From NCBI RefSeq assembly GCF_030253575.1, contig NC_080560.1:38673001-38737000 (forward strand): DNA of 64,000 nucleotides. The letters run 5' to 3'. Shown here piece by piece: positions 5,124 to 52,587 of this stretch (the first letter of the stretch is position 1; every line of letters begins with the position of its first letter). The position numbers and the translations under genes are program-made. The notes beneath the pieces were generated by a model. The model was not told where the DNA came from and made no database searches. It saw only the letters and a program-made list of their open reading frames with translations. This stretch comes from Rhododendron vialii (taxonomy: Eukaryota > Streptophyta > Magnoliopsida > Ericales > Ericaceae).

Positions 5124-5183
<60 letters not shown>

Positions 5184-5664
5184 CACAGTTGGGGATAACG
5201 CAGGGAAGAAACTTGAAATCATCGTCCTTGTCAGAGCGAGTCTGCTTCCACCCAATTTCACATTCACAGACGAAAAAGAAAGTGGTGTTTAACGAAGGCT
5301 TGCAATTCCCCTTTCCACACTCCACTCCCTTGCACACATCATCTGTCAAAGATCAAGAAACACAAAAGAAAAACCCCTAAAACATGATCAAAACTCTCAA
5401 AAATCCTCAATTCGTAATATGATCTTCAAAAATAAACTCGACCCAGTTGGTAATGGGTCGTAACATCCCAAACCCATTATGGGGTTTTTGCAAATCAATC
5501 TTAAAGTTCGCAACTTTAAGCCAAAGGGCAAAAAACGAATTGAGAAAGATAAGGAATAAGAACAGACCAAGTATAGGAGTGAAAATGTCAGAAGTAACAG
5601 TCCAAGGATGAAGAAGAAGGAGGAGGTTTGCGATTATAGCAGCGGCGACAATAGCAGAGGCCAT
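2140..5664 (-). CDS. EGF-like, cysteine-rich, probably GPI-anchored secreted protein (six exons)
   Basis: Six exons joined by GT-AG introns in matching phase: 5664-5568, 5342-5187, 3249-3169, 3085-2960, 2619-2524 and 2222-2140, giving 212 residues. The start is the first ATG in frame with a hydrophobic signal peptide (residues 1-25 or so). The mature part begins with DDVCKGVECGKGNCKPS, then CECEIGW and CVIPNC, a linker with N-glycosylation sites (NIS, NNSS), then a second module CHWSDCGGGTCNKTSP, CECKEGYYNL and FPCFQDC. It ends in a hydrophobic tail (NINWLITVTMILAPVIL) of the kind removed when a GPI anchor is added. Plant proteins of this layout are often labelled Notch- or slit-like, but they are small surface EGF proteins, not receptors; their role is poorly known. 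A CT tract (5685-5708) lies in the 5' leader just before the ATG, and another starts a few bases inside intron 2. Intron 2 also holds a SINE. Confidence 0.9.
4440..4650 (+). repeat. tRNA-derived SINE, family 1, in intron 2 of the EGF-like gene (antisense to it)
   Basis: The head resembles tRNA promoter boxes: TTTGGCTAAGTAGGCACGAG (A-box-like) and GCATGTTCGAATCCCAC (B-box-like). The body includes GGGTTTGCCCGGTCCTTAAC and the tail GACATCCCGTTATGG followed by an A-rich stretch. Copies of the same family lie at 7590-8030, 27283-27468, 35516-35700 and, inverted, near 62.6 and 63.6 kb. Confidence 0.85.
5129..5181. repeat. (GA)n microsatellite at the intron 2 donor of the EGF-like gene
   Basis: About 53 bases. 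On the coding strand it begins directly after the donor GTGAGCT, so the first 50-odd intronic bases are (CT)n. Confidence 0.95.
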
Positions 5665-5684
5665 GTTCGAGAGTTACAAAGAAC

Positions 5685-5708
5685 AGAGAGAGAGAGAGAG
5701 AGAGAGAG
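5685..5708. repeat. (AG)n / (CT)n tract in the leader of the EGF-like gene
   Basis: A pyrimidine (CT) tract on the coding strand, 20-45 bases upstream of the start codon at 5664. Similar CT tracts sit before both RING first exons, a common feature of plant core promoters and leaders. Confidence 0.85.
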
Positions 5709-7348
5709 GAGTCCCTTTCCTTGTATTTAATGGAAGGGTTTGAAAATGTAAAACGATAGGACCATGGGGGGATACGGATGGGAAGTCGGAAGATTTTAAA
5801 CGTGTCTGAGCTAGAATAGGGATAAATTGGGGCGTTGGGAGTTGGGGTGTATGGTTTTCCTCTTCAGTAATAACTCCAATCTTTGTTATAGCAAGTACAT
5901 CAGCAGAGGGGAAATGATTTTTTGACTACTTTAGATAGAAAAAATTCAAAAAACACGCTGCACCAATAGAGGTAAAAAAGTAGCTAAAATGAATTTATGA
6001 ACGGTTGAACTCTATTTTTACCTATACATTGTTTGTACTCCTTAATTTTTTTTATTGTTTCTTTCTCTCCCTCCTTTCTCCTCTTTTTAAATAATAAAAA
6101 TAATAAAAAATGAGTGAAAAATATATTTTTTAATTGGTATTAGGTAAAATAGATAGTATTAGTAGAATTGTGAAGGAAAAAGTTGATAGTTAAAATAGAA
6201 TTGTGAACTGTTCACAATGCATTATACATGTTCACCGGTAAACTTGCTTTCATGACTAGTCTGATCAGCTTCCGGATCCCTTCTTTTGTAATTGGCCTTT
6301 TTGGAAGTTACTTCTTTGATAAAGAAAAAAGGATAAAATGCAATAGTCATTCAGTTCGTGGACGGCTCGTTTTTGCCTTTTTCGAGCTTGGAATGTTAAG
6401 TTTTTTTGAGCTCAAGCTCGCAAAAATAAACAAGCCTAAATATTCGCACATGATCATGTAGTGGAGGATTAACCTAAGTCATTAGATCATGTGAGAATCT
6501 AGAGACATGAAAAAATTCTCGCATAATTCTATGACAGATAATACACGAAAACATTGGAACAGAAACAACTGTGTATAGATAGAGAATTTGAGCTCTCGTG
6601 AGAGATTCCTTTTTCGCTTAGCATTCATCATCACTACTTTTTAAGTAGTTACCATATACTGTACAAAATTAAAAGGGTTATAGTACTCGTATCATTGTAT
6701 GTATTCTCACTAATTAAGTGTACATCATTTTATTTATCTTATGGCGTTTTCAACCATAATATTCTTTTTTTTAATTGAATGTCCAGATCAGCTTATGTGC
6801 ATCTTAACTTCACCATAATATTTTTATGGTGTTCTCCACCATAATATTTAAAGAGTAAAAAAAAACAAGTACGATTTCATAGTTGGGCACATTATTAAGT
6901 TATTGACAGAATAGACTATCCCTAACGTGAAAGGAGAGTGCTTTTTTTCCAGTTTCTTGTACATTATAAATGGGACCTCAAACCTCAAGACATATCATGT
7001 CAAAAAAAACCTCAAGACATAGGTGGGCTTGTCCTTTCAATTTCCAAACTATAGTTAACTACATCTGTGGAAACTAGTGTCAACTAAGTTGACAGAGACT
7101 GATTATCAGCCATAAGAGAGGCAAATATTGTTGCCGAGACATGCTATATACACTATACCAAATCAAACCACTATATTATTCATTATATTTTTTATAGAGT
7201 TCATTCAGGATTTTACAAAAATACAAAAAAATATTCAAAAATTTTAAAATAATATTTTATGAGACCCTGTAAAAAATCAGCTCTAACAGATATCAGTAAA
7301 TATTATTTCTTGGTTTGTATGTCCAAAACTGCGCAGTTGAGCATATTG

Positions 7349-7512
7349 CGGACAATACTACTCACACAACAATCAAAACATAACAACTCACACAACTTCT
7401 CACATACATGTGGGGCCCACACATAATAGTGTGTGTGGAGCTCACATGTATGTGAGAGATTGTATTTAATATTGTGTTTGAATTGTTGTATGAGTAGAGG
7501 CAAATATTGCCC
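7349..7512. mobile_element. MITE with long inverted arms
   Basis: The left arm (CTACTCACACAACAATC, then CTCACATACATGTG) is mirrored on the right by CACATGTATGTGAG and GAATTGTTGTATGAGTAG. Almost the whole 165 bases folds on itself. The superfamily is undetermined because no clean target duplication was found. Confidence 0.75.
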
Positions 7513-7589
7513 ATTCTTTACAATCTCAGGACCACAACACAACACCACCTACAACTAACTCCACCTTAGAACCTTCTTCTTTCTTCTAT

Positions 7590-8030
7590 CCCCGGTGGTT
7601 TCGTGAAGCGAGCACGAGGAAGCTAATAAGTGCTTGTCCTCCATGTGATCGAGGTAACATATTGAGGCTCCATTCCAGAAACCTTATTAAAAAATAAGCA
7701 GCTTATTTCACATTTTCAAACTCAAAAATAATATAAATGAAAAATAATTTTTTAATTTTTTTTGCATCGTATAAAAGACCTCGATGAGATTTTTCAAACA
7801 AGATCTATATTGCATATTTTTAGATTTCAATAAGTCTATAATTTTTGAGCTTGAAATTATATATTTTTTAAAATAAGGGCTTTTTTTTTTGTTTCCGGAA
7901 CGGAGCCTGAATCTCACGGAGTTTAAACAATCCAAACTTCGGGCCACTGGAGGGTTCACCCCGGTAATTAACTTCATTGCCCTAAAATTAATTGAAAATA
8001 CGCACAAGCTAAGCCGAATATCCGATTTTT
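7590..8030 (+). repeat. SINE family 1 copy interrupted by a nested MITE
   Basis: The left half (CGAGCACGAGGAAGCTAATA to CCATGTGATCGAGG) and the right half (GGAGGGTTCACCCCGGTAAT to the GCCGAATATCCG tail) match the family 1 SINE. The MITE at 7666-7907 separates them inside the B-box-like region. Confidence 0.75.
7666..7907. mobile_element. Tourist/Harbinger-like MITE (copy 1 of 4)
   Basis: Ends are GGCTCCATTCCAGAA and the near-complement TTCCGGAACGGAGCC, about 242 bases, flanked by TGA on both sides. The internal sequence is shared with the copies at 13394-13630, 14745-14995 and 15499-15741. A 3-bp target site and GGC-type ends suggest PIF/Harbinger. Confidence 0.75.
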
Positions 8031-38390: not shown

Positions 38391-38530
38391 TCCCCACAAT
38401 TACCAAATGATGCATCCTTGGCCTAAGATGGGAACGGGGCGGTAGTGTGTCGTATTGTAAGGGATGATGGGAAATTTCAAATTTGTGTACTTTTTGTGTT
38501 ACAGTGATGACGAAGAGATTGTCTTATTCA

Positions 38531-38745
38531 CGGAGGTTCCGTGAACAAGCTTTTCACGGAAAACGCGCGATCTCAATCGTCCGTTTCTGCAATCAACGGT
38601 TGAGATTTATTTTTAATTTATGACATGTATTAAACATTTCTTACCGTTAATAGTTTGTCTTCAATCTGAAACGTCCAAAACACTTTTGGACGGCCAAGAT
38701 TGACCTCGATAAATTTTATTTACGGAAGCTCCGTAAATAAAAAAT
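38531..38745. mobile_element. small TIR element (relative at 58702-58932)
   Basis: Ends TATTCACGGAGGTTCCGTGA and TTTACGGAAGCTCCGTAAAT are inverted. The interior AAACACTTTTGGACGGCC and the CGCGCGATCTCAATCGTCCG word recur reversed near 58.8 kb. Confidence 0.65.
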
Positions 38746-39079
38746 TTCCCGATTATGAAATAATGAAATCAAAACCATCTAAATCATATCATAAATAAAA
38801 AATTGGCCTAAGGTCCACTATAACATGTTTCTAACCCGCTAGGTCCACTGATCAAGTTTATAACCCACTAAGTCCACTAATATGTATTTAGTAAGGCATA
38901 AAGTCCACTACATTTAAAAAGGAAAATAGTGCCTGACAGAATTACCCTTCCGTTCAAATCCCATCCGTTTAGCCCATTATCCCTTCTACTTTTGAAATCA
39001 CGCCAATCACGGCAGTGACGTTGGAATTTTGCGACAAAAAGAAAGAGGGAGTTTTATGACAGAGAGAAAAAAGGAAGAT

Positions 39080-40260
39080 CACATATAACGTTATATACTC
39101 GTTCAACAGTTCACATTTAACGTTAGATACTTACATTTTACGTCATATACTCATTCATCAGCTCACATTTAACGTTATATACTCATTCGCACATGACAAA
39201 AGATCACATATAACGATATTAACGATGCAAACCTAAAATGATTATGGTTGTTTAGGTTTAACCTTATATAATGTCACATGTTCATTTTTTCAAGGGATAC
39301 ACATGACAAAAACATACATTTAACGTTAGATATTCATTTATCAGAAAAAATGAAATTTTGATCTGGCCTCATATAACAATGTTAAATGTGAAATGGACAT
39401 TTGATTAGTGGTTCGGTTAAATATATAACGTTATCAAAAGTGAGTCAGTGAAGCCGCCGCGTGGACCAGTTCAATAAAGTAAAATATATAATGTTATATG
39501 TGAGTTTCTATGTAGTGAAACTCCAAAAAAGAGAGAGGAACATATACCATTATTTGGGTATTATTCAGAACATGAATAACAAATCAATTTCATTGATTTA
39601 TGAGGCTTACATAGTTATAAATTTGATCGATAGATCTACAAAATGGATTCAAAGTCTTCTGAATAGCAATATAAAAACAAGATAAATAAATTATACCAAA
39701 AAACTTTTAAAAAATTAAAATTCTAAATCTAATGGCATTGGCTGTCTTTTCAGACTCAACGATCCTGATGTGGCTCTTCAACTTCATCATGTATCTTTGG
39801 TAGAAGGATTTGATGTGGAGGGCTCTTCTGAGGTTGGAGTTCATCATTAACTCTATCACCACAGTGTCATTATGATTATTTGTGAAGAACTGAACTCTGT
39901 TATAGACATATATGGTTATCAGAAACACACATATAACGTTATATGGTTTACTTTATTGAATTGGTTCGCGCAGCGACATCAATGACTTGCTTCTAATGAC
40001 CATAGACAGATTCAGACATATAACATTATATGTTCAGAAAAACTGACATATGACAATATATAGTCACAGAGGTTGACACATAAACAATCCACATATAATG
40101 GCACAACAGTGTATCGATATTTAACCTTATATGTCTGAATCTGTCCCAAATAACCAATTGACGACATAAAGAATCGAAACAAATTGACAAATAAAAAGTC
40201 CACATATAACCACACAACAGTGTATTGCCATATAACCTTATATTCACACATATATGTGTC
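39080..40260. repeat. array of AACGTT-centred palindromes in the MULE
   Basis: Many variants of CATATAACGTTATATG (a perfect palindrome) at about 39083, 39112, 39134, 39165, 39202, 39312, 39424, 39932, 40018, 40050, 40122 and 40230, at irregular spacing. The last ones lie next to a repeated GGTTCGCGCAGCG-type word (39963, 40375). No frame here looks coding. Confidence 0.8.
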
Positions 40261-40420
40261 TCATATACGGAGAACATACCATATCATTTTATAATATAGT
40301 TATATGTACAAATAAAAATAACATATATTTATACACACAAATTAATAAACTACTAAATTTATGCTATTGAATAGGTCCGCGTAGCGGCTTATAAACCTCT
40401 TAGAAACCTGAATATATAAC

Positions 40421-42308
40421 TGTAGGCACCCCAATCTGGGCTTCCAGATTAGTTTACTTACAGTTTTTGATTCCTCGATGATGAAATGGATCAAGAACAC
40501 CCCGGGAATGATAGCGTGTTTGAGCTTTGAGTGTTTGCAAAATCCTTGAACCTAACCTAGCCTAAGCCACTTCAAAAACCAAAAACCCTACTGATGCGCG
40601 CCAGGGTGCAACCATCCCGCGCCGGGGCGCACCATCGTGCGCCTGACTCACTCCATCGCGCGACAGAGCGCCAGGACGCACCATCGCGCGACAGACTGAC
40701 TCCGTCGCGCGACGGTCCAACCTACCACCAATCTTTCTGAAGGAGGACAGTTGGCCACCAATGCAACTCTCAGCCAGCCTCGTGGACTGACTGAACTCCT
40801 TTCCTGGCACCAACCAAATCCACCATCTCCCCCTATATATACCCCCCCATGGTTATTCTTTCAAAGGGTTACCAAATTTTAAGCCCAAAGAAGGATTACA
40901 CTCACAATCCTCCATTTTCACACTTCAACCATTCAAGAACAAAGCTTGTTCTTTCCTTCTACCACTCAAACTCCTCAATCAAGCCTTCAAACATCAAAGT
41001 TCAAACATCTTTCAAACTCAAAACCGAAGGCATAACTTACCTTTGTTCTGTTTTCTGTTCTGATCCCTGAGGGGAGCTGGCAGAGCCAAGGCTGGTAATC
41101 AATACCAGTCCTGGTCCTAAAGCTGGCAAGGTTTCAAAAACTATCGTGGTAGGAACCAACGCGCGATGGTCCCACTCTCACGCGCGACACTCCGTTGTTG
41201 CACGCGATGGACCGCGTGGGGATTGGTTTCCTACTGTTTTATGCTTTATTATGTTATAGATCACTGTTAAGCATGTTAAAAATCAGTTTACTGCTTTCCT
41301 TTGTTAGAAATTGCTAGTATGTAGTTCAATTTGCATGTCTGCGGTTTTGGAGTACCCCTGGGATCATTCTGGACCTGTCCCAGAACCCAGAAATGTGTAA
41401 ACCAAACACCGGTCCGCGCCAGGGCGCACCATCGCGCGCCAAACTGGCTCCATCACGCGACAGAGCGCCAGGGCGCATCCTCGCGCGCCAGACTAGCTCC
41501 GTCGCGCAATAGTATGTCTCTAACCAGTGAGTGGCCTTGCACGGGTAGCTTAGTTTTTGGTCATTATTTTGTCCCCACACTGTTTATGGGGTGTTTTATT
41601 AATTTGTAGGGCTTTACAACCTTTAAACTGTATATTATGCTTCTTATAACTGCGTGGTTTGTCCTGGGTGTGCACTGGTCCTTCCATAGCCCAGAGGGTT
41701 TGAGAATAAGAGCTGTGGGTTTGAGCTCACCGGCGCGCACGTGTCTTGGAGTTGTGTGCGCATGAGTGAACAGTATGTAGTGACTTGTTCAGTGCATGTT
41801 GGTTTCTTCCTGCGCACGTCATTCCAAAACAGGGGCTTCCCAGTTTGTTTAAACTCCCACAGCAGTCTGTTCTCATCCTATACTAACTGTTCATCTATGC
41901 TATCATTTACATCCTGCAAACATGTTACAGTTTTAATTCCCGTTAAACTGTTCCCCCGCCCTAATTGGCTAAAGAATTGATTAATCAAACAGAATCGCAA
42001 AACAAGTATTTTCGCAAATGCCTAAGTAGAGACCGATCTCCGGATTGGGCGAGAGGGGTGCCATAAAACCATTTCCCTCTCGTAACCTGGCTCCCGAACC
42101 CAGATATGGTTATGACGGACTGGTTCCTTAAACTTTTTCAAATCAATCAGTGCGGCAAGTGCTTCGAAATACGGTTCCTTGGGTGTCGGACCTTCAAACC
42201 CGAGTGGCGACTCTGTATTTTGCGAGCGCTTGCTTCCCCGCTCGCGCTCCCTCGACCCGGGCCCTTTGCGTTTTAGAATCCGAAAATTCCAAGGGCACGC
42301 TGCCCATA
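40421..42308 (+). mobile_element. solo-LTR-like fossil, 1.9 kb
   Basis: Starts TGTAGGCACCCCAATCTGGG and ends near GCACGCTGCCCATA, with ATAAC on both sides (40416-40420 and 42309-42313). A TATA-like stretch lies near 40835. It carries no coding domains. Clusters of GCGCG-rich words (about 40590-40720, 41160-41215, 41410-41510) mark it. A related, truncated copy begins at 44401. Probably Ty3/gypsy-type, but no internal region survives to prove it. Confidence 0.65.
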
Positions 42309-42489
42309 ATAACCATATATATTCACAGAGCAAAATGACAACCGAACAAAATGATAAAATACCATACATCTTCACAGAACAAAATGATATATATAAACAA
42401 CCAATAGGAGAATATATAACGTCATATAATGTTACACAATAACATATAACATTACAATGTTATAACGTAATGTTATATGTTTACATCCG

Positions 42490-43149
42490 GGAGTGTGGGG
42501 GCGGAGCCCCCACGACACAAATGATATTTTGAAGAACTTGTGGTGTAATTTCGGCCATAGAACCTGACCTAATTATATTGTAGTCGGTATGTAATTAGAG
42601 TTATATGTTAAAGACTCAGATGTAAACATATAGCATCATATGTTCTTCCATTGTAATGAAAATGATTTCAGAAGCTCATATATAACATTATATGACCCCA
42701 TAAGTTCATCCAAAACCTTAACCAAACCAAATATGAACAAATAGTAACAAATAACCTTATATGTTCAACCCTAAATTAAACTCGACTTACCTGTTTGTGT
42801 TGAAAACAACGACAATGGTGGGAATGAAGCCGACGGTGGGAAAGGACGACGATCTAGTGGAGATTTGTGCAGATCTCGTTTGGTGACGCGCTGGCGACCT
42901 ATACTTTTGTTGAACACGAAGGTGATGCGGAAGTGAGATGCGATGGCGACAGCGAGGCTGGGACGGGATGCGACAGGGACAGGAGGTGGGTGGCGATGGC
43001 AACGGGAACGGGAGGCTGGCATGGGATGTGACGGCGATTGGAGGTGGGCGGCAACGACGGCGACGACAGAAGGTTGAGTTGAGATGCTTGTCCCGACGGC
43101 TCCCTCCTCTCTCTCTCTTTGATCTCTCTCTCTTTCTCTCCCGACGACA
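42490..43149. repeat. MULE internal unit A
   Basis: A 660-base unit: GGCGGAGCCCCCAC hairpin, CTTGTGGTGTAATTTCGGCC, a stretch with AACATTATATGA words, then a GC-rich end (GGCGACAGCGAGGCTGGGAC) running into CT repeats. Repeated directly as unit B and again as unit C. The basic or Pro-rich frames in it are compositional. Confidence 0.88.
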
Positions 43150-43909
43150 GGAGTGTAGGGGCGGAGCCCCCACGGCACAAACGATACTTTGAAGAACTTG
43201 TGGTGTAATTTCGGCGATAGAACCTGACCTAATTATATTGTAGTCGGTATGTAATTAGAGTTATATGTTAAAGACTCAGATGTAAACATATAGCATCATA
43301 TGTTCTTCCATTGTAATGAAAATGATTTCAGAAGATCATATATAACATTATATGATCCCATAAGTTCATCCAAAACCTTAACCAAACCAAATGTGAACAA
43401 ATAGTAACAAATAACCTTATATGTTCAACCCTAAATTAAACTCGACTTACCTGTTTGTGTTGAAAACAACGGCAATGGTGGGAATGAAGCCGACGGTGGG
43501 AAAGGACAACGATCTCATGGAAATTTGTGCAGATCTCGTTTGGTGACGCGCTGGCGACCTATACTTTTGTTGAACACGAAGGTGATGCGGAGGTGAGATG
43601 CAATGGCGACAGCGAGGCTGGGACGGGATGCGACAGAGACAGGAGGTGGATGGCGATGGCAACGAGAATGGGAGGCTGGGATGGGATGTGACGGCGACTG
43701 GAGGTGGGCGACAATGACGGCGACGACAGGAGGTTGAGTTGAGATGCTTGTCCCGGCGGCTCCCTCCTCTCTCTCTCTCTCTCCCCCCCCCCCCCCCCCC
43801 CCCCCCCCACACGTTTGAAGGAAATGAAAAAGAAACTGCTATAGTGGGGTATATATAGTGATTAGGGCTACAGGGTTATGAAACTGCTATAGTGGACTTA
43901 TGAAAAATT
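43150..43909. repeat. MULE internal unit B with its own right terminus
   Basis: Copy of unit A followed by (CT)n, a run of about 26 C (43783-43808), then AACTGCTATAGTGGACTTAT and GAAAAATTCTCC, the right terminus found at 51887 in a shorter form. Confidence 0.88.
43783..43808. repeat. poly(C) run
   Basis: About 26 consecutive C directly after a CT tract, on the unit B counterpart of the unit C CT tract. Length may vary or reflect assembly error. Confidence 0.85.
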
Positions 43910-44400
43910 CTCCATTCAAACTATCACTAGAAGGCTTCAATCCTTGCTTGTCGAAAGGAATATTTGGGACGGTTTGTGTCTCGAAGTTAGGGATCAGGTT
44001 CGGGATCTTCGGAGTGAAGTCGAGAACAAGAACATATTTGAAACTAGGGATTTGCTTGGTAATTTCGCAACTCGCAAATGCCTAATATTGACGCCGCGGT
44101 GAAGAAAAGAGAGTGGTGGATTGAAGAGGCGGCGGGTCAATAGAGAATGAGAATAAAATTGAGAGAACATAGAAGAAGTGTAAGGGTTTCCTGGTGAAGA
44201 GGAAAAAAGGTCAAAAGGTGAAAGAGGAGAAATCTCTCGTGAAAGAGACGAATCCAACTTGGTTGCTTTTAGTAAAGAGGGCAAGATTGTTAGATTACAT
44301 ACGAGTTCGTGGCACTATAAAAAAAATAGTCGTGGCATTATCTCTATCCTACTCTAAAATGCTACTATTAGCCTTTACAAAATAGTGATAAATGACAGTG
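43910..44400. other. unidentified DNA inside the MULE
   Basis: Contains TTGCTTGTCGAAAGGAATAT and GATCAGGTTCGGGATCTTCG; short frames on both strands, none recognised. It may be captured host sequence. Confidence 0.4.
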
Positions 44401-45300
44401 TAGACACCTCAATCTGGGCCTCCGAATAATCTTTAAGTTCCCCGATGATGAAATAAGAAAAAATATACTTTCAAGGCTTGGATTGTTGCTCCCTTCTTAC
44501 TCCTTCTCTAACCTCAAGAAAATCCCATTTTAAACATATATGGTGGCCCTAGGTTCAATTGCAAAAGAGAAATATGCGTTTACTTTGTCAAAAATAATTT
44601 TTTCCATGACACATTGAGGGTAAAATGGACACATATTTCAATGTATAAAATGTCTTTGAGTGAAATCAATTGGGTTAGAAAGAGGACTCGACAAGCTTTT
44701 CAACGCTTCAAACCGCGCTCAAATCCGAGTTTGGGAGTATTCGGGGCGCCCCCGCGAAGTTTGGTGAGCTGTGCTGTCTCGAAAAACCGCACGGCATTTC
44801 CAAACGCTGAACGGCATTTCAGAAAAATTCAAAAATCACTCCACTGCACGGCCTTCAGGAGGAGCGTCTGACAGATTCCCATGCGTGTCAGCAGATTGGC
44901 CAGAGCACATTTTGCACATTTTTTTTCCTTTGGGTGCACTCCAAGCATTTTTTTGCCTATAAATACACTCTTTCTCTTAAAGAAAAAGGACCCCCTTAAT
45001 TCTCTCTCTACAACCCTTTACACCCATCACCACCATATACATCTCTTTCTTTCTCTACATCAACCTACAAGCTGGGCTATTACAAAATCACTTTGAAATT
45101 GATTTTTCTTCTTATTCTCTCTACAAAAGTTCATCAAATCTCCCCTAAACTCAGAAATCCCACTGATTTTAGGGATTTTCAGTCCTTATCAACCTTCATT
45201 CCTCCACATTCAAGCTTCGATCAAAAGGTATAAATAAATTCCTTGGGCTAAAACGTGTTTTAGCCTTGAGGGGAGCTCACCGAGGCCCTTCCTAGTTCAT
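44401..45300 (+). mobile_element. partial LTR fossil, relative of 40421-42308
   Basis: Begins TGTAGACACCTCAATCTGGG and shares CCCGATGATGAAATA and CTTGAGGGGAGCTCACCGAG-type words with the first LTR. A TATA-like CCTATAAATACAC stands near 44957. The right end is not found, so it is truncated or too diverged; the end given is approximate. Confidence 0.5.
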
Positions 45301-46599
45301 CTATACTGGGTTTGGGCCTCAAACGAGCTTTATATTCAAAAAGCACAAAAAAAAAAAAGAACAGCTTCTGCATTGGATGCGCTACATCGTGCGGCGTAGT
45401 GTGTTACACCGTGCATCATTTTATTTTTTTTGTACATGCTCCTTATGTTATTTTGTTTAGTCTTTTTTTTTTTTTTTGCGTAGATTTATTTCATAATGGA
45501 TTTTCAATTTAAAAGTCACTTTTGATTCTACTAACATTCTAAAACATCTCAAAATGGCTTTTAGTAAGATTTTGTATAATAAAATGAATCAAAAACTTCA
45601 CAATCTGTTTTTCGGAAACTCCGAATACAAAAAAGTCCATTTTAGAGGCCAAGGATTCATTTTATGATGCAAACTCGAACCATTCTGGAATATGCAGAAA
45701 TATGTACCGCACGGTATTCCTAGTACACTGTGCGATGTATTTTTCTGCCGCGCCGCATTTATTTTGATAGTAGCAGTTTTTGACTTTGTACAACTTTCTG
45801 TTATTTATACATCGTACATCCATTTCATACTGTACAATTTGCACTCCAAGCACGCCAATATGTTATATTAAACCCCATGCCCCTTTTTCCGTATATGTTT
45901 TTAAAGTTAAGTTTTTTAAACGATATTAAAGCCCACATTAAAAATATTTGTTAATGTCACTTCCCTTCTTATTTTTTCCCTATTTGTTAACGTCACTCTC
46001 CACAAATAGTACTAAGTCTATTTTTATGGTCACTTAAGAGAGAGAGTTGGTAGTTGTGAGTGTAATAGTAGTCCGGACAAAGTGAATCATGTCATAAACT
46101 GTGGAGATATAGCTATGAAAAATATTGCTTTCGAGGCAATGATTTTATTTACTCTTGGAAGAGATTTGATGTGGAAAACATCAATAGAGATGGGATTTTA
46201 GCCCAATTAGTTTAATCAATCTTTGTGGAAACTCGACTCAACGCTTAAAGTGAAACTCGACTCAATTAGTTTAATCACGCTTAAGATGCTAGGGACATCC
46301 TCAACTGAGACACCTGTGGGACATCCTAGACACGTAGGGACACGACTCAACTGAGACACCTGTGAGACACCGAGTGGTCTTCATAACGTATCAAACTTGT
46401 TTTGGGAATTATAATTTACAACAAAGTTAACTAAGGTTAGCAACATCATGCAATTATCAAAAAGATGCTAGAGCATACGTAGTGCAATAATCAAAACTAA
46501 ATCTAGCAATATTAGCTCAAAAAGAGCTCACATAGAATCCAAAGTCACATAAACCCAGACTAACAAAGTTCAACAAACATGCCATACAATGAATAACGC
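45301..46599. other. AT-rich DNA inside the MULE
   Basis: No gene recognised. Contains long T runs, the words ACATCCTAGACACGTAGGGA and CAACTGAGACACCTGTG repeated at 46300-46370, and a trace of a GAGCAT-type TIR element near 46450. Confidence 0.4.
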
Positions 46600-48240
46600 A
46601 AAAATTCAGATACTCACTCTAGGAATTAACAGTGTACATCCATATAGGAATACGAAGTCACATAACTCGGAATTAGAAAATCCAAAAACCATAGCCAAGA
46701 ATTAACTGAACAGTCTAGGAATTAAGAAATACGCAGTCACATAACCCAGAATTAGAAAATCCACAAACCATAGCCAGGAATTAACTTAACAGTCTAGGAA
46801 TTAAGACCCAACCTCCTTTCATGTGTATAAACACATTATCAGCAGGGCTCCTCTTATGCATCTTCTCAAGAACCTTTGGAATAACTGACAAACGTGTTAA
46901 ATAGAACTATTTCATTACTTATGGTAAAGCCACTATTACCTTAATAAGTAGTATGTAAGAGTAAGTTCAGGCATATACTGATAAGATATGTTGCCTTGAT
47001 GACATGTTTGACTGCATTGTCTGTGCATACATCATACTTGTTTTATAGTTGAATGAGGGTAAATCATTGTCAAATGGGCTGATTCATCGATTAGGTTCTA
47101 GGTTTGTTTGATCTGTAAATTCTGGAGAGAAGTCTGGTAATGTGAGATTTGTGAGTTTTTGGTTTCTAATGTGAGTTTTGGTTTTATCTCTCACTGACTA
47201 ATTTGGTTAAAGTGGCCAAACTCTTCAGCAAAGAGGTTATTGAGAACGTCCTACGTGGACTGTCCTACTCCATTCTCAATTTGGTACGAGATAATTTGTA
47301 TTCAATTTCAACTAGTTTTTTAACTAAATTACATTACATTATGTTAGATTTTAATTTAACTTTTCAATGCACAAGGATGCAATACTTGATGAAGGTGTTG
47401 GAACTGGCTTTCTCCTCGACCGTGATGGGTATATACTGACATGTGCACATGTCTTGTCGATTTTGCAAGAATTCAAAGTGGGGGATAAAAATGTCGAACG
47501 TTGGCTTCCCGGGCAGGTTAGGACAAATTTCAGAGGAGAAGATGCCTATGTTGTCGATGTCAAATCAATTGACATCGGCAACGACGTTGCACTGCTAAAG
47601 CTTCCTCCAGGTGTAATAAAGCAATCTCATCTTCCCTGTGTGCTTACAAAAGTACCCCCTGATATGGGTGAATATATCTTCTTGGTTGGACACCCAGCAA
47701 GTCTCCCCTTCCCCTTGCGGTTTGGTCATGTCATTAATCCTCGTCGTTCCCTTTATGATTTTAGCCCGGGTCACCTTGCCCGTTTCCCTCAGCATGATGA
47801 ATATATGGATCCAGACATGAAATTCCTCGAGCTGGATATGAGGTCAGCCCCAGGTTTTTCTGGTGGGCCATTAGCCACAATGGAAGGCAATGTGATTGGG
47901 ATTTGCATGCTGGGATTGATGGACTTTTTGATCAAGGTGCAAAAGCAGCATATGGGATTCTGTCGTCCATGATTACGAAGGTTCTTGAGAAGATGCATAA
48001 GAGGAGCCTTGCTGATAATGTATTTCGACACATGTAAGGAGGTTGGGTCTTAATTCCTAAACTGTTAAGTTAATTCCTGGCTATGGTTTATGGATTTTCT
48101 AATTCTGGGTTATGTGACTGCATATTTCTTAATTCCTAGACTGTTCAGTTAATTTCTGGCTATGGTTTATGGATTTTCTAATTCTGGATTATATGACTTC
48201 GTATTCCAATGTGGATGTACACTGTTAATTCCTAATGTGA
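46600..48240. repeat. inverted repeat framing the captured protease
   Basis: The left arm (about 46610-46890: GTGTACATCCATATAGG, CTAGGAATTAAG repeats, TGCATCTTCTCAAGAACCTT) is the complement of the right arm (about 47975-48240: AAGGTTCTTGAGAAGATGCA, CTTAATTCCTA repeats, TGTGGATGTACACTG). A transcript across it could form a long hairpin. Confidence 0.85.
47203..48037 (+). pseudogene. captured trypsin/Deg-like serine protease gene in the MULE
   Basis: Exon-like part ending 47283 (VAKLFSKEVIENVLRG, then LSYSILNL, donor TTG/GTACGA), a 92-base intron, and a main exon from 47376 (acceptor CACAAG/GAT). The protein shows a trypsin-2 domain with the full catalytic triad: GVGTGFLLDRDGYILTCAHV (His), IDIGNDVALLKLPPG (Asp) and SAPGFSGGPLATMEG (Ser). 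The frame ends at 47972, while the expected C-terminus (GLFDQGAKAAYGILSSM, KVLEKMHKRSL, to 48037) continues one frame over, so a single-base shift alters the end. Upstream coding parts are missing. Retention of an intron shows capture at DNA level. Deg-type proteases act in plastids, mitochondria or peroxisomes; targeting here is unknown. Confidence 0.75.
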
Positions 48241-48292
48241 GCATCAGAATTTTTGTGTTATTCCCTTGTTATGGCATGTTTATTAAACTTTG

Positions 48293-48800
48293 TCAGTCTG
48301 GGTTTATTGAACCAGAAAAACCTGAGGCTGACCTCATATCCAGCTTAAGGAATTTCATGCTTGGATCCATATATTCATCATGTTGAGGGAAACGGGCAAG
48401 GTGACCCAAGCTAAAATCATAGGGGGAGCGGCGAGGATTAATGACATGACCAAACCGCAAAGAGAATGAGAGATTTGCTTGGTGTCCAATCAAGAAGACA
48501 AATTCACCCACATCAGGGGTACTTCCATAAGCACACAGGGAAGATGAAATTGCTTTATTACACCTGGAGGAAGCTTTAGCAGTGCAACGTCATTGTCGAT
48601 GTCAATTGATTTGACATCGACAACATAGTCATCTTCTCCTCTGAAATTTGCCCTAACATGCCCGGGAAGCCAACGTTCGACCTTTTTCTCCCCCACTTTG
48701 AATTCTTGCAAAATCGACAGGACATGTGCACTTGTCAGTATATGCCCATCACGGTCGAAGAGAAAGCCGGTTCCAACACCTACATCAAGTACTTGTGGTG
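48293..48800 (-). pseudogene. inverted second copy of the captured protease
   Basis: On the minus strand: VGVGTGFLFDRDGHILTSAH, VKSIDIDNDVALLKLPPG, then in another frame MGEFVFLIGHQANLSFSLRF, PRRSPYDFSLGHLARF and RSASGFSGS, where it breaks off. It is tail-to-tail with the 47.2-kb copy, diverged by scattered substitutions and one frame change. Its 5' side abuts unit C. Confidence 0.82.
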
Positions 48801-49202
48801 TAATTTCGGCCATAGAACCTGACCTAATTATATTGTAGTCGGTATGTAATTAGGGTTATATGTTAAAGACTCAGATGTAAACATATAGCATCATATGTTC
48901 TTCAACTGTAATGAAAATGATTTCAGAAGATCATATAGAACATTATATTATCCCATAAGTTCATCCAAAATCCTAACCAAATCAGATCTGAACAAATAGT
49001 AACAAATAACCTAAATTAAACTCGACTTACCTGTTTATGTTGAAAAGAACGGCAGTGGTGGGAATGAAGCCGACAGTGGGAAAGGACGGCGATCTCGTGG
49101 AGATTTGTGCAGATCTCGTTTGGTGACGTGCTGGCGATCTATACTTTTGTCGAACACGAAAGTAATGCGGAGGTGAGATGCAATGGCGACGGTGAGGCTG
49201 GG

Positions 49203-51508
49203 TGTCACGACCCGCTATCCCTAGACCCCTTATAAGGGAATCACGGCCTGTGACCGGCCAATAAGGCCTTCTTACATAACCAAATGGGCTCAGAATAAAG
49301 TGCTCTAAATAAAAAAATTGAACATTTGCGGAAGCGATTAAAAAAACTTCACTTAAATTTGTTGGGTCTATTAATCAAAGTAACCATAAACAAGTTTAAG
49401 CAAAATGAGCACAACCCATTTGGTCTAGAGCATCCATACATTGATAATTTTCATGAAATCATAATTACATTAGCATGAACATCCATAACATACATAACTT
49501 ATGTACATCACTTTGCAAAAATATATACACCCTTGATCATAAGGGAAACAAGTACAAACACGTCCAAAAATACAAGTCTTCTTTCTACTTCTATTCTATA
49601 TGCAAAACGATTCCATGAAGCCCAAACTTGCACAAAACATTGCACCTATAAGCTATTGTACTTCATCACCTGAAATTGATAATTAAACCGTCAGCTGAAA
49701 GCTCAGTAAGTAAAGCTCATACTCTAATTTGGGTTTTGAATATTCAATACATATATAGCACACTAGTTACGAACATTTAAAAGAAATACAAAAGATATCT
49801 TACATGAAAGCATAAGGTACTCGAACACATTTACATAGCTAATACCGCTAAACTTATCACACACATACATACTTGATACATATCGGGATCCCGGCCGATT
49901 ATTGGTACCCATCGGTAATGGCACATACCTGGATATTATAGAACCCTCCAAAAGGGCACATAATGCTGGCTATTATGGAACCCACCAGCGGGCACATACG
50001 GTAAAGCAATGGCAAGACATACTTACTTCGTAAAACAAAACTTGTAACATACATACTTCGAACATCTTAGGAAATACTTTAATGAACATTTTCATTATAA
50101 CATAGCACTCAAAACACTTAGACATATCACTTCATAACTTAGAAAATCAAGTCACACTTCATAGAAAAGAAAAGTTTATAAAATTTTCCAATTCAAAGTA
50201 TGAGGTTACTCACATTCCTTTACACTTCAAGTAAACATCAACTTGTATCTCTTATATCCTTCTCTTGTTCACCAAATCCTACATATTGTATATGAACATT
50301 CATCATTTACACAAAAAGCTCATAAAATGATGCACATGCATGATTCCCAAAAAAAAAAATGATAAGTTAACCATGACATGCTCCAACAATTCTTGAGGAT
50401 AAACACAAACACAAATACACAATGAACTAGGTCTCGAAAATTTTAACGTATAAAGGGGACTCATATTCACATGGTGTCAAATTTTCTTGAGAATTTACGT
50501 GGCCAAGAACTTCCCTTACAAATTAGAAGAATAAGGAACAAAACTGCAGAATTCAGCACAGTCCAAAACAGCACGCAGCTTAATAAACGAATTGTTCAAA
50601 ATTATTCTCTTTGAGTTTTACTCTAATTTTTGGACACAATACACTAGGCACATATGGGTACCTCACATAAAAATATCAGAAAATAACGTGATGCGAAACT
50701 AGGTCAAACACACCAAAAACCGAAGGCCAAAACAGAGATTCAGCAGTAGCAGTAAAACAGAGTGCAGTCTAGTGCGAGATTTTTCTAGACTTCGTTTCAA
50801 GGAATGCTAATCCCATATTTTTACACAACATTGTAGACTCACTGAGGAACATCCCATAAAAATTTCATAATTTTTGAAGATGATTTACTAGGTTTAAAAA
50901 TTCGTGGCTTAAGGTACAGATTCCAGTAAATTTCTGGACAGATTTCTTTTCAAACTCACTACAAGAAAATTTACCTCTTTTAGGTTTAAACCATGGATTG
51001 AGAGAGCTTCAAACACTTTTGTGAGAGATGGATTTAAGATTGAATCTTGCTCCAAGAACTTGATTGAACCCTAAAACCAAAACCCTAGAAGTAGAAGATG
51101 GGGAGCCTTCTTGATTTTTTTCTTGAGAGGAGTGAGAGACATAGGATGTTGAAGGAATGAGAGGGTGGGGGCTGTTATTATTTTCTTCCTTCTACATCTA
51201 GAATTGTCTAGAAAAGGGGTGATCTAATTATCTAATGAACCCTCACAAAACATTCTCTTCAAATAAGTACCCAATAATATTTTCACATTGACCCATAACT
51301 TTATTTTATGAATCTCTATGTTTTGTCTTAGGAAATTTGACTCATAACACATAAATCATATACATGGCATATAATTCAAATATAATTCGTTTGTGTCTCA
51401 TAGCACATAAAGGACACGTAAGTACTTAAAATCACATAATTTAACATCTATGATTAACTTATACTTAAATAAGCATGATTAGCATAATTAAACATCTTGG
51501 GTGTTACA
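49203..51508 (+). mobile_element. solo LTR, 2.3 kb (fossil)
   Basis: 2,306 bases beginning TGTCACGACCCGC and ending GGGTGTTACA, flanked by the 5-base duplication CTGGG (49198-49202 and 51509-51513). Units A and B show the uninterrupted site. No internal genes or second LTR are present. LTRs of this terminus type belong to plant Ty3/gypsy elements. It is younger than the unit it interrupts. Confidence 0.88.
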
Positions 51509-51650
51509 CTGGGACGGGATGCGATGGCGACAAGAGATGGGTGGCGATGGTGATGGGAACGGGAGGCTGGGATGGGATGTGACGGCGACTGAAGGTGGGC
51601 GGCAACGGTGGCGACGACAGGAGGTTGAGTCGAGATGCTTGTCCCGGCGG

Positions 51651-51651
<1 letters not shown>

Positions 51652-51712
<61 letters not shown>
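51652..51712. repeat. (CT)n microsatellite
   Basis: About 60 bases at the end of unit C; units A and B have short forms at the same place. Confidence 0.95.
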
Positions 51713-51714
<2 letters not shown>

Positions 51715-51898
51715 CGTTTGAAGGAAATGAAAAAGAAACTGCTATAGTGGGGTATATATAGTGATTAGGGCTACTTGGTTATATTAGTATTTTTGTAGGC
51801 TAGTAAACTTAATGGGTTATGAATTTTAGAAGTGGACTTAGTAGGTTATGAAACTGCTATAGTGGACGACTTATGAAAAATTCTCCCTATCATAAATA

Positions 51899-51977: not shown

Positions 51978-52587
51978 AGTTGAAGGGAGCAACAGTGGGA
52001 AAATGTAATCTATACGTAGTGATTGAAAGAGAAGAGGTTAGACCTGTGGGAATGCAAAATCGATCGACCAAATTTGACATTTGGGATAGCAAAATTCAAT
52101 CTTTGTAGCATGAAAATTTCAATTTAACTGGAAGATCTTGAAAGTTAGATGATCTTCCTCTCTGTCATTAATCTTCGATATGTGAGATTTTTACCTTTCG
52201 ATTTCTCCTTTTGCCCAAACTGGCACGGAAATTCTTTGGAAGAAAATAATCAAATATTTTTTATGGGGTGGAACAAAATGTTTCACATTTCTCCTTCGAA
52301 TCAATTCTGCTTTTTGCCTTCTGTCGAAAGACCTTGAAGAAGAAGAAATCGATTTCAAAAAAGAAATGGCAATCGAAAAAGAAGAAGGAAAAGTAAAAGT
52401 ACGTTGGTGTGCAATATCGGTCAACCATAGACCCCCAGCTACAAGATCTAATCCTCCCGAAAAGATATGTACTTCCATTGAAATCGGGAAAGCTTCGACC
52501 AAAATTTGTGAAAAAATAAAAATAAAAGTTCACTAGAACAAACACGGTGAAAAAAATGAAGCCTATCAAACACAACTGAGGATAATT
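51899..52587. other. spacer with (GA)n and no recognised gene
   Basis: A GA tract at 51937-51974. Overlapping frames at 52149-52575 on both strands are rich in Phe, Lys and Ser and have no recognisable motif. Confidence 0.5.

Follow-up and report, generated by a model that had tools for sequence, protein, structure and literature searches.

A compound Mutator-like element in Rhododendron vialii that may have moved as a macrotransposon by end bypass

The way in which Mutator-like elements (MULEs) acquire genes of their host is still under debate. For elements that carry host sequence between terminal inverted repeats (TIRs), Tan et al. laid out end bypass, gap filling and the process termed FoSTeST as mechanisms, and in that account end bypass requires that an inner end be skipped, that the flank be carried along and that a sequence further downstream act as the end (PMC8277862). 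The origins of Pack-MULEs are held in the same source to be incompatible with end bypass. Composite elements are already known: in tomato, MULEs in which a solo TIR lies internally have been classified as types 4-6, and 13 of 61 multi-TIR elements have a solo TIR at one of their ends or inside (PMC3310237). Here we describe a MULE insertion in Rhododendron vialii, located in a 64-kb window (the whole stretch of DNA analysed, C4:38673001-38737000) of a genome of 532.6 Mb in 13 contigs. The insertion contains two copies of one MULE family, termed A and B, with foreign DNA between them, and may record the trapping of host DNA.

We consider, with a probability of roughly 60%, that this insertion is a macrotransposon formed by end bypass, in which the left end of copy A and the right end of copy B moved as one unit. 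In the part of the open-licence literature surveyed, no title on MULE macrotransposition or on MULE hybrid elements was found; earlier reports may exist.

Boundaries and the two copies

The sequence TATCATAAATA is present only twice in the window, at 38787 and 51888, each time flush with one of two matching inverted termini (38813-38879 against 51801-51867, 79% over 68 columns). An earlier interpretation made from the letters alone (hereafter, the sequence-only reading) had proposed a single insertion with matching inverted termini and an exact outer target duplication, and all of this was borne out. It had also given the duplication as 11 bases long; the repeat is exact, but its length needs correction. 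The 12 identical bases consist of the 9 bp TATCATAAA and 3 further bases. Because the relatives of the element begin TAAAAAATTGG, its start was set at 38796, and the start/end rule taken from those relatives gives a span of 38796-51887 (~13 kb). The 3 additional matches are a coincidence, because the right flank continues with TAA, like the first bases of the element, and the true duplication is most likely the 9 bp TATCATAAA. The outermost 17-20 bases differ between the left and right ends.

Exact flush duplications of at least 8 bp (8-12 bp) were found in 12 of the 23 family copies tabulated, the window included, and 7 of the 23 had no exact duplication of at least 5 bp. This table covers 23 of 25 places (L010 and L026 were dropped by the end-finder, which also misplaced the right end of L011); an 11-bp duplication of L026 was seen in a separate comparison. 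Among 506 mis-paired left and right flanks, only 3 shared at least 8 bp and none shared 10 bp or more, a control that rejects a chance origin of the window's duplication. No paralogous empty site was recovered: apart from the two halves of the locus itself, which overlap in the duplicated bases, none of 42 joined-flank matches spanned the join (40 of 509 candidates were scored). The left flank contains, at 38491-38762, a dispersed repeat with copies at 77-85% identity, the source of 38 of those 42 matches. The right flank at 52200-52300 resembles by eye what we take to be a reverse transcriptase fragment of a plant long interspersed nuclear element.

Within these boundaries, the family has two right ends (Table 1). 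Copy A is collinear with the relatives L019, L021, L022, L024 and L029-L031 and with a copy on contig 13. Its inner right terminus, which had been placed at 43909, does exist and stops at 43913, where it lacks one base of the canonical CTCCC. The region of this extra terminus is similar to that of the outer one over at least 100 bp (43618-43879 against 51509-51782, 84% over 274 columns). The sequence that follows the inner end is ATTCAAACT, not TATCATAAA, and no duplication adjoining the 43913 terminus matches the left flank of the insertion. Thus two family copies, likely to be separate ones, lie within one pair of duplications, with none at the inner end.

Copy B as a whole occupies 48787-51887, split by an insertion, and lacks its left part. 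The thrice-repeated unit noted earlier is present as A1, A2 and B. A1 and A2 are 96-97% identical (97.4% in one comparison), and only the 660-bp tandem pair that they form (starting at 42490 and 43150) can clearly be called an internal duplication. Between A2 and B the identity is 93.0%, measured across 660 aligned bases with long pyrimidine runs left out, and A2 is closer to the contig 13 copy (94.4%) than to B. Among 13 other copies the 78 pairs have a median identity of 92.7%, and 35 of the 78 reach at least 93.0%. At 93.0% as against 97.4%, the third unit is unsupported as a recent copy of the tandem pair. B is therefore likely, to judge from these comparisons, to be a separate, 5'-truncated family member of similar age. 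The sequence-only reading had regarded the locus as a non-autonomous MULE that contains nested insertions and that grew by capture and duplication; the former description stands, whereas growth of one element through duplication is unsupported, since only the tandem pair is clearly internal. It had further stated that termini belonging to different elements would overturn it. This is probably the case, given the identity of A2 and B, yet the shared duplication still shows that the two termini arrived jointly.

Table 1. Coordinates of the features of the insertion, as positions in the window
Feature	Position	Strand	Remarks
Left target-site duplication, TATCATAAA	38787..38795		Exact repeat extends to 38798 via the first bases of the element
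MULE copy A, near-complete, left to right end	38796..43913	+	Holds an LTR-type insertion and the tandem duplication
LTR-type insertion in copy A, probably a solo LTR	40421..42308		5-bp duplication ATAAC
Tandem duplication copy A1 (660 bp)	42490..43149	+	Single in relatives compared
Tandem duplication copy A2	43150..43778	+	96% over 629 bp to A1
Internal right terminus of copy A	43873..43913	+	90-100% to right ends of relatives
Foreign non-MULE block (4.9 kb)	43914..48786		Between A's right end and truncated B
Gene-like fragment	43941..44351	+	Patchy 71-91% matches to two C7 loci (7.24 and 7.33 Mb)
Divergent LTR-type sequence in foreign block	44399..~45949		Shared 3' end
Dispersed repeat (~217 bp), MITE-like	46029..46246		27 near-full matches, 80-88%, among 40 scored candidates
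Protease gene end and 3' region, inverted partial copy (a1)	46549..46889	-	Inverted 3' piece
Protease gene 3' part	46890..48310	+	Intron, exon 47383-47864, C-terminus, 3' region with 79-bp repeats
Protease exon, inverted second copy	48311..48791	-	92% to 47383-47864
MULE copy B, 5'-truncated, internal part	48787..49202	+	Starts inside the element
LTR-type insertion in copy B, TGTCACGACC...GTGTTACA, probably a solo LTR	49203..51508		5-bp duplication CTGGG
Right part of MULE copy B with the outer terminus	51509..51887	+	Follows the LTR-type insertion
Right target-site duplication, TATCATAAA	51888..51896		Flush with the outer right terminus
LTR, long terminal repeat; MITE, miniature inverted-repeat transposable element.

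The MULE family and the enclosed sequence

A check for genomic copies with the same termini, which the sequence-only reading had proposed, was productive. A 29-base left-end pattern, allowing at most 1 mismatch, was found at 74 places (37 per strand, 2 of them within one end), and its reversed control at none. The relatives begin as described above and mostly end ATTCTCCC. Combining 73 of these places with 39 right ends gave 17 left/right pairs closer than 20 kb, 15 of them at 2.2-3.5 kb, one at 5.3 kb and one at 11.7 kb; the closest relatives are ~2.7 kb long, and L022, L029, L030 and L031 align collinearly with 38796-40398, with 42309 onward and with 51509-51887. The pair spacing and the alignment of the relatives thus put the usual length of an element at 2.2-3.5 kb. 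L045 and L031, which lie 27 kb apart (C2:42220300-42248700), were the closest pair in two trees, which points to a recent duplication or short-range transposition.

A search of 40 of the 42 open reading frames of at least 70 aa in the window element revealed no transposase, as had been claimed, and the search for an autonomous partner, also proposed earlier, yielded a good candidate. Traced via the 11.7-kb end pair, an element of 11,770 bp on contig 12 (C12:19283899-19295668) has an exact 9-bp duplication, ATCAAAAAA, and ends of the window type (left, 91.6% over 119 bp; right, 83.7% over 92 bp). An open stretch of 249 aa in it matches DBD_Tnp_Mut (PF03108) with an E value of 1.3e-16 and the beginning of the MULE domain with one of 0.015, and another frame matches the second part of that domain (E 6.1e-06); about 3.55 kb of the element was read, and both MULE-domain parts score below the curated cut-off. 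In addition, the non-autonomous L026 shares 143 columns with it at 83%, away from the ends. The 5.3-kb copy on contig 13 was rejected as an autonomous partner: it is an ordinary family member that carries a 2.55-kb insert, and its open stretches do not exceed 140 aa. With a 9-bp target duplication (MULEs have ~9-11 bp), long TIRs and MuDR-type transposase sequence in a relative that shares its ends, the family is, on sequence grounds, a true MULE. The contig 12 element also contains, on the opposite strand (L057, C12:19286800-19287400), a 160-aa open stretch without a Pfam match. This stretch may resemble plant proteins of the mobile-domain or DUF1985-like type from MULEs that bear Ulp1.

Apart from an LTR stretch (44439-44800) that is also present in the flank of L019, nothing in the foreign block matched the family copies that were fetched. 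A gene fragment, which the sequence-only reading had described as a capture, is indeed present and is trypsin-like, and a second, weaker gene-like fragment lies near A's right end (Table 1); the pieces of it that were tried gave no Pfam match at its cut-off. The forward protease frame (47355-47972, 205 aa stop-to-stop) matches Trypsin_2 with an E value of 6.7e-19, and a second Trypsin_2 match in the element has an E value of 5.7e-08; a host gene fragment thus lies between the termini, as in a Pack-MULE. The closest relative of the protease block, L039 (C4:38930500-38940499), is located 215 kb away, at 38.936 Mb. It shares the forward/inverted layout and the junction labelled a2/b', the individual pieces being 90-95% identical, and no MULE homology was found in the 10 kb fetched there. 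It is a relative of the window's protease block, not a proven parent. Site patterns across the four arms favour an inverted pair older than the split at 9 sites, and the alternatives at 3 and 1, which suggests that the pair predates the MULE event. Because the a2/b' junction occurs in L039 without a MULE, and because of this 9 versus 3 and 1 distribution, an origin of the inverted pair as a MULE product is unsupported.

Of 16 protein matches, the best seven are at C4 38.72-38.94 Mb, three of these being the window's own; the matches in this interval include a 49% relative in a 287-aa open frame. If transcribed, the exon arms in the window (~482 bp, 92%) could form a hairpin giving rise to small interfering RNAs against the C4 protease genes. 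L039 itself, which has an inverted trypsin-like protease pair at 5172-7878 with one arm broken by a 568-base insert, is a possible natural hairpin locus.

Three LTR-type insertions were recognized, not two as had been counted before. The label is based on the ends of all three, on the 5-bp duplications of two and on the many genomic relatives of the middle one, which has five near-full-length matches at 71-76%; a target duplication was looked for at this sequence and none was found. The insertion in copy A is not present in the relatives compared.

Formation of the composite

How could one target duplication have come to surround two right ends? We propose that host DNA with protease gene fragments once held, a few kb from each other and in direct orientation, two members of a single non-autonomous MULE family. 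We infer that A and B had inserted there separately and that, before the move, A was complete and B was without its left part; the 660-bp tandem duplication would have formed within A. A MuDR-type transposase, supplied in trans and probably from an element like the 11.8-kb relative on contig 12, would then have brought together the left end of A and the right end of B, passing over A's right end, so that the whole stretch inserted at TATCATAAA, of which 9 bp were duplicated. The insertions flanked by ATAAC and CTGGG would be later than their host MULE copies. Directly oriented neighbouring copies occur elsewhere in the genome, with left ends 7.7 kb (C10), 33 kb (C9) and 40 kb (C7) apart.

The anatomy of the locus fits each requirement of end bypass. 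First, TATCATAAA stands outside A's left end and B's right end and is absent at A's right end. Second, because the foreign DNA begins within one base of A's terminus, unlike a break inside the element, A's donor flank appears to have come along. Third, B's right end, downstream of A's, is the outer terminus.

Several observations weigh against this proposal. A donor locus was not recovered: the 487 bp beside A's right end (43914-44400) match only their own place and patchy relatives on C7, although a cut-and-paste donor could have healed or been lost. The presence of both C4-related and C7-related sequence in the foreign block could reflect several template switches, and A's right end lacks its last base. 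A genome-wide MULE-domain search gave 150 scored matches from 1,102 candidates, and neither the window nor the contig 12 element is among the 150; this absence carries little weight, because both are missing there. Of the 150 matches, only 2 fell less than 20 kb from one of the 73 left or 39 right ends, each at a distance of more than 12 kb. Finally, A and B appear only weakly separable. In comparisons and trees that used 15 to 17 rows of right-end copies, B's nearest row was A2, narrowly (93.0% against 92.7% for the next), and the best 430-bp tree joined A1, A2 and B with weak support (71/0). In the right-end tree the approximately unbiased test rejected a sister relationship of A2 and B when simple repeats were kept (p-AU 0.010) but not after their removal (0.379), and this rejection is therefore not relied on.

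The main rival route, which we regard as unlikely, is gap filling, in which a break in a resident MULE between the TATCATAAA copies was repaired from another family member, the copied tract running through that member's right end, its flank and nearby protease sequence before rejoining at 48787. The final structure would be identical. Under gap filling, breakpoints should fall within the element, and the protease/B junction (~48786/48787) does lie inside B, with hardly any sequence in common between the two sides; protease relatives also occur on the same contig, and a bias toward nearby fillers is described for animal Pack-TIRs (PMC8277862). The A-side junction, however, is at the terminus and not inside the element, so that the copied stretch would have to contain a second right end and exit within one base of it, and several templates would be needed.

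Growth in situ, by duplication of the right part of one element and insertion of foreign DNA, which the sequence-only reading had favoured and which would resemble the layout of the maize element Ds-l4-483, is improbable. The tandem duplication in A shows that such events occur, and B's narrow affinity to A2 and the weak 430-bp grouping described above would agree with it. Nevertheless, the identity of A2 and B is at the level of other copies and far below that of the tandem pair, and the first copy of Ds-l4-483 has a duplication on both sides (PMC3260210), which the inner end here does not. Two independent insertions around a resident member of the protease cluster on C4, to which the window copy belongs, would make the shared duplication coincidental, and the exact flush 9 bp (12 with the coincident bases), set against no mis-paired flanks with at least 10 bp, leave this close to refuted.

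It is possible, although we would put it at somewhat less than even odds, that the locus is a frozen intermediate of host-sequence capture by MULEs, in which one copy's left end moved jointly with the right end of a neighbour truncated at its 5' side, past a near-perfect nearer right end. If so, Pack-MULEs could form by hybrid-end transposition with one terminal deletion, like the Pack-CACTA route and in contrast to the discounting of end bypass for them in PMC8277862. The locus is of value because it preserves A's right end, the truncated second copy and the shared duplication. As a result, the rival routes differ in the state that they predict for this site in haplotype B and in the genomes of other Rhododendron species.

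Comparison with described composites

The locus belongs to known kinds of structure, namely the multi-TIR Pack-MULE and the compound Ds-like composite. Ds-like elements are members of the hAT superfamily. Like the window element, the tomato MULEs of types 4-5 (Ferguson and Jiang 2012, PMC3310237) have an extra inner terminus and a distinguishable outer duplication with none inside; they are mostly single-copy and non-autonomous, and those of type 5 contain a gene fragment, as here. Their origin is left open in that report, whereas in the window the inner terminus can be assigned to the near-complete copy A and the outer one probably to B.

The compound Ds-l4-483 of maize likewise consists of a complete copy, an LTR fragment with foreign transcribed sequence, and a truncated copy, which ends in a perfect terminus and a target duplication (PMC3260210). 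Its first copy is flanked by a duplication of its own (PMC3260210), and the inner end in the window has none, which sets the two apart. The end bypass (or transduction) and gap filling described for Pack-TIRs are candidate routes by which host DNA comes to lie between TIRs, on the basis of animal data (PMC8277862). In the hybrid model of Pack-CACTA formation (Catoni 2019, as described in PMC13317346), neighbouring related copies each contribute one end, with host DNA between them, as we propose here. That model involves terminal deletions in two neighbours, whereas in the window only the 5' end of B has been lost and the 3' end of A has been kept.

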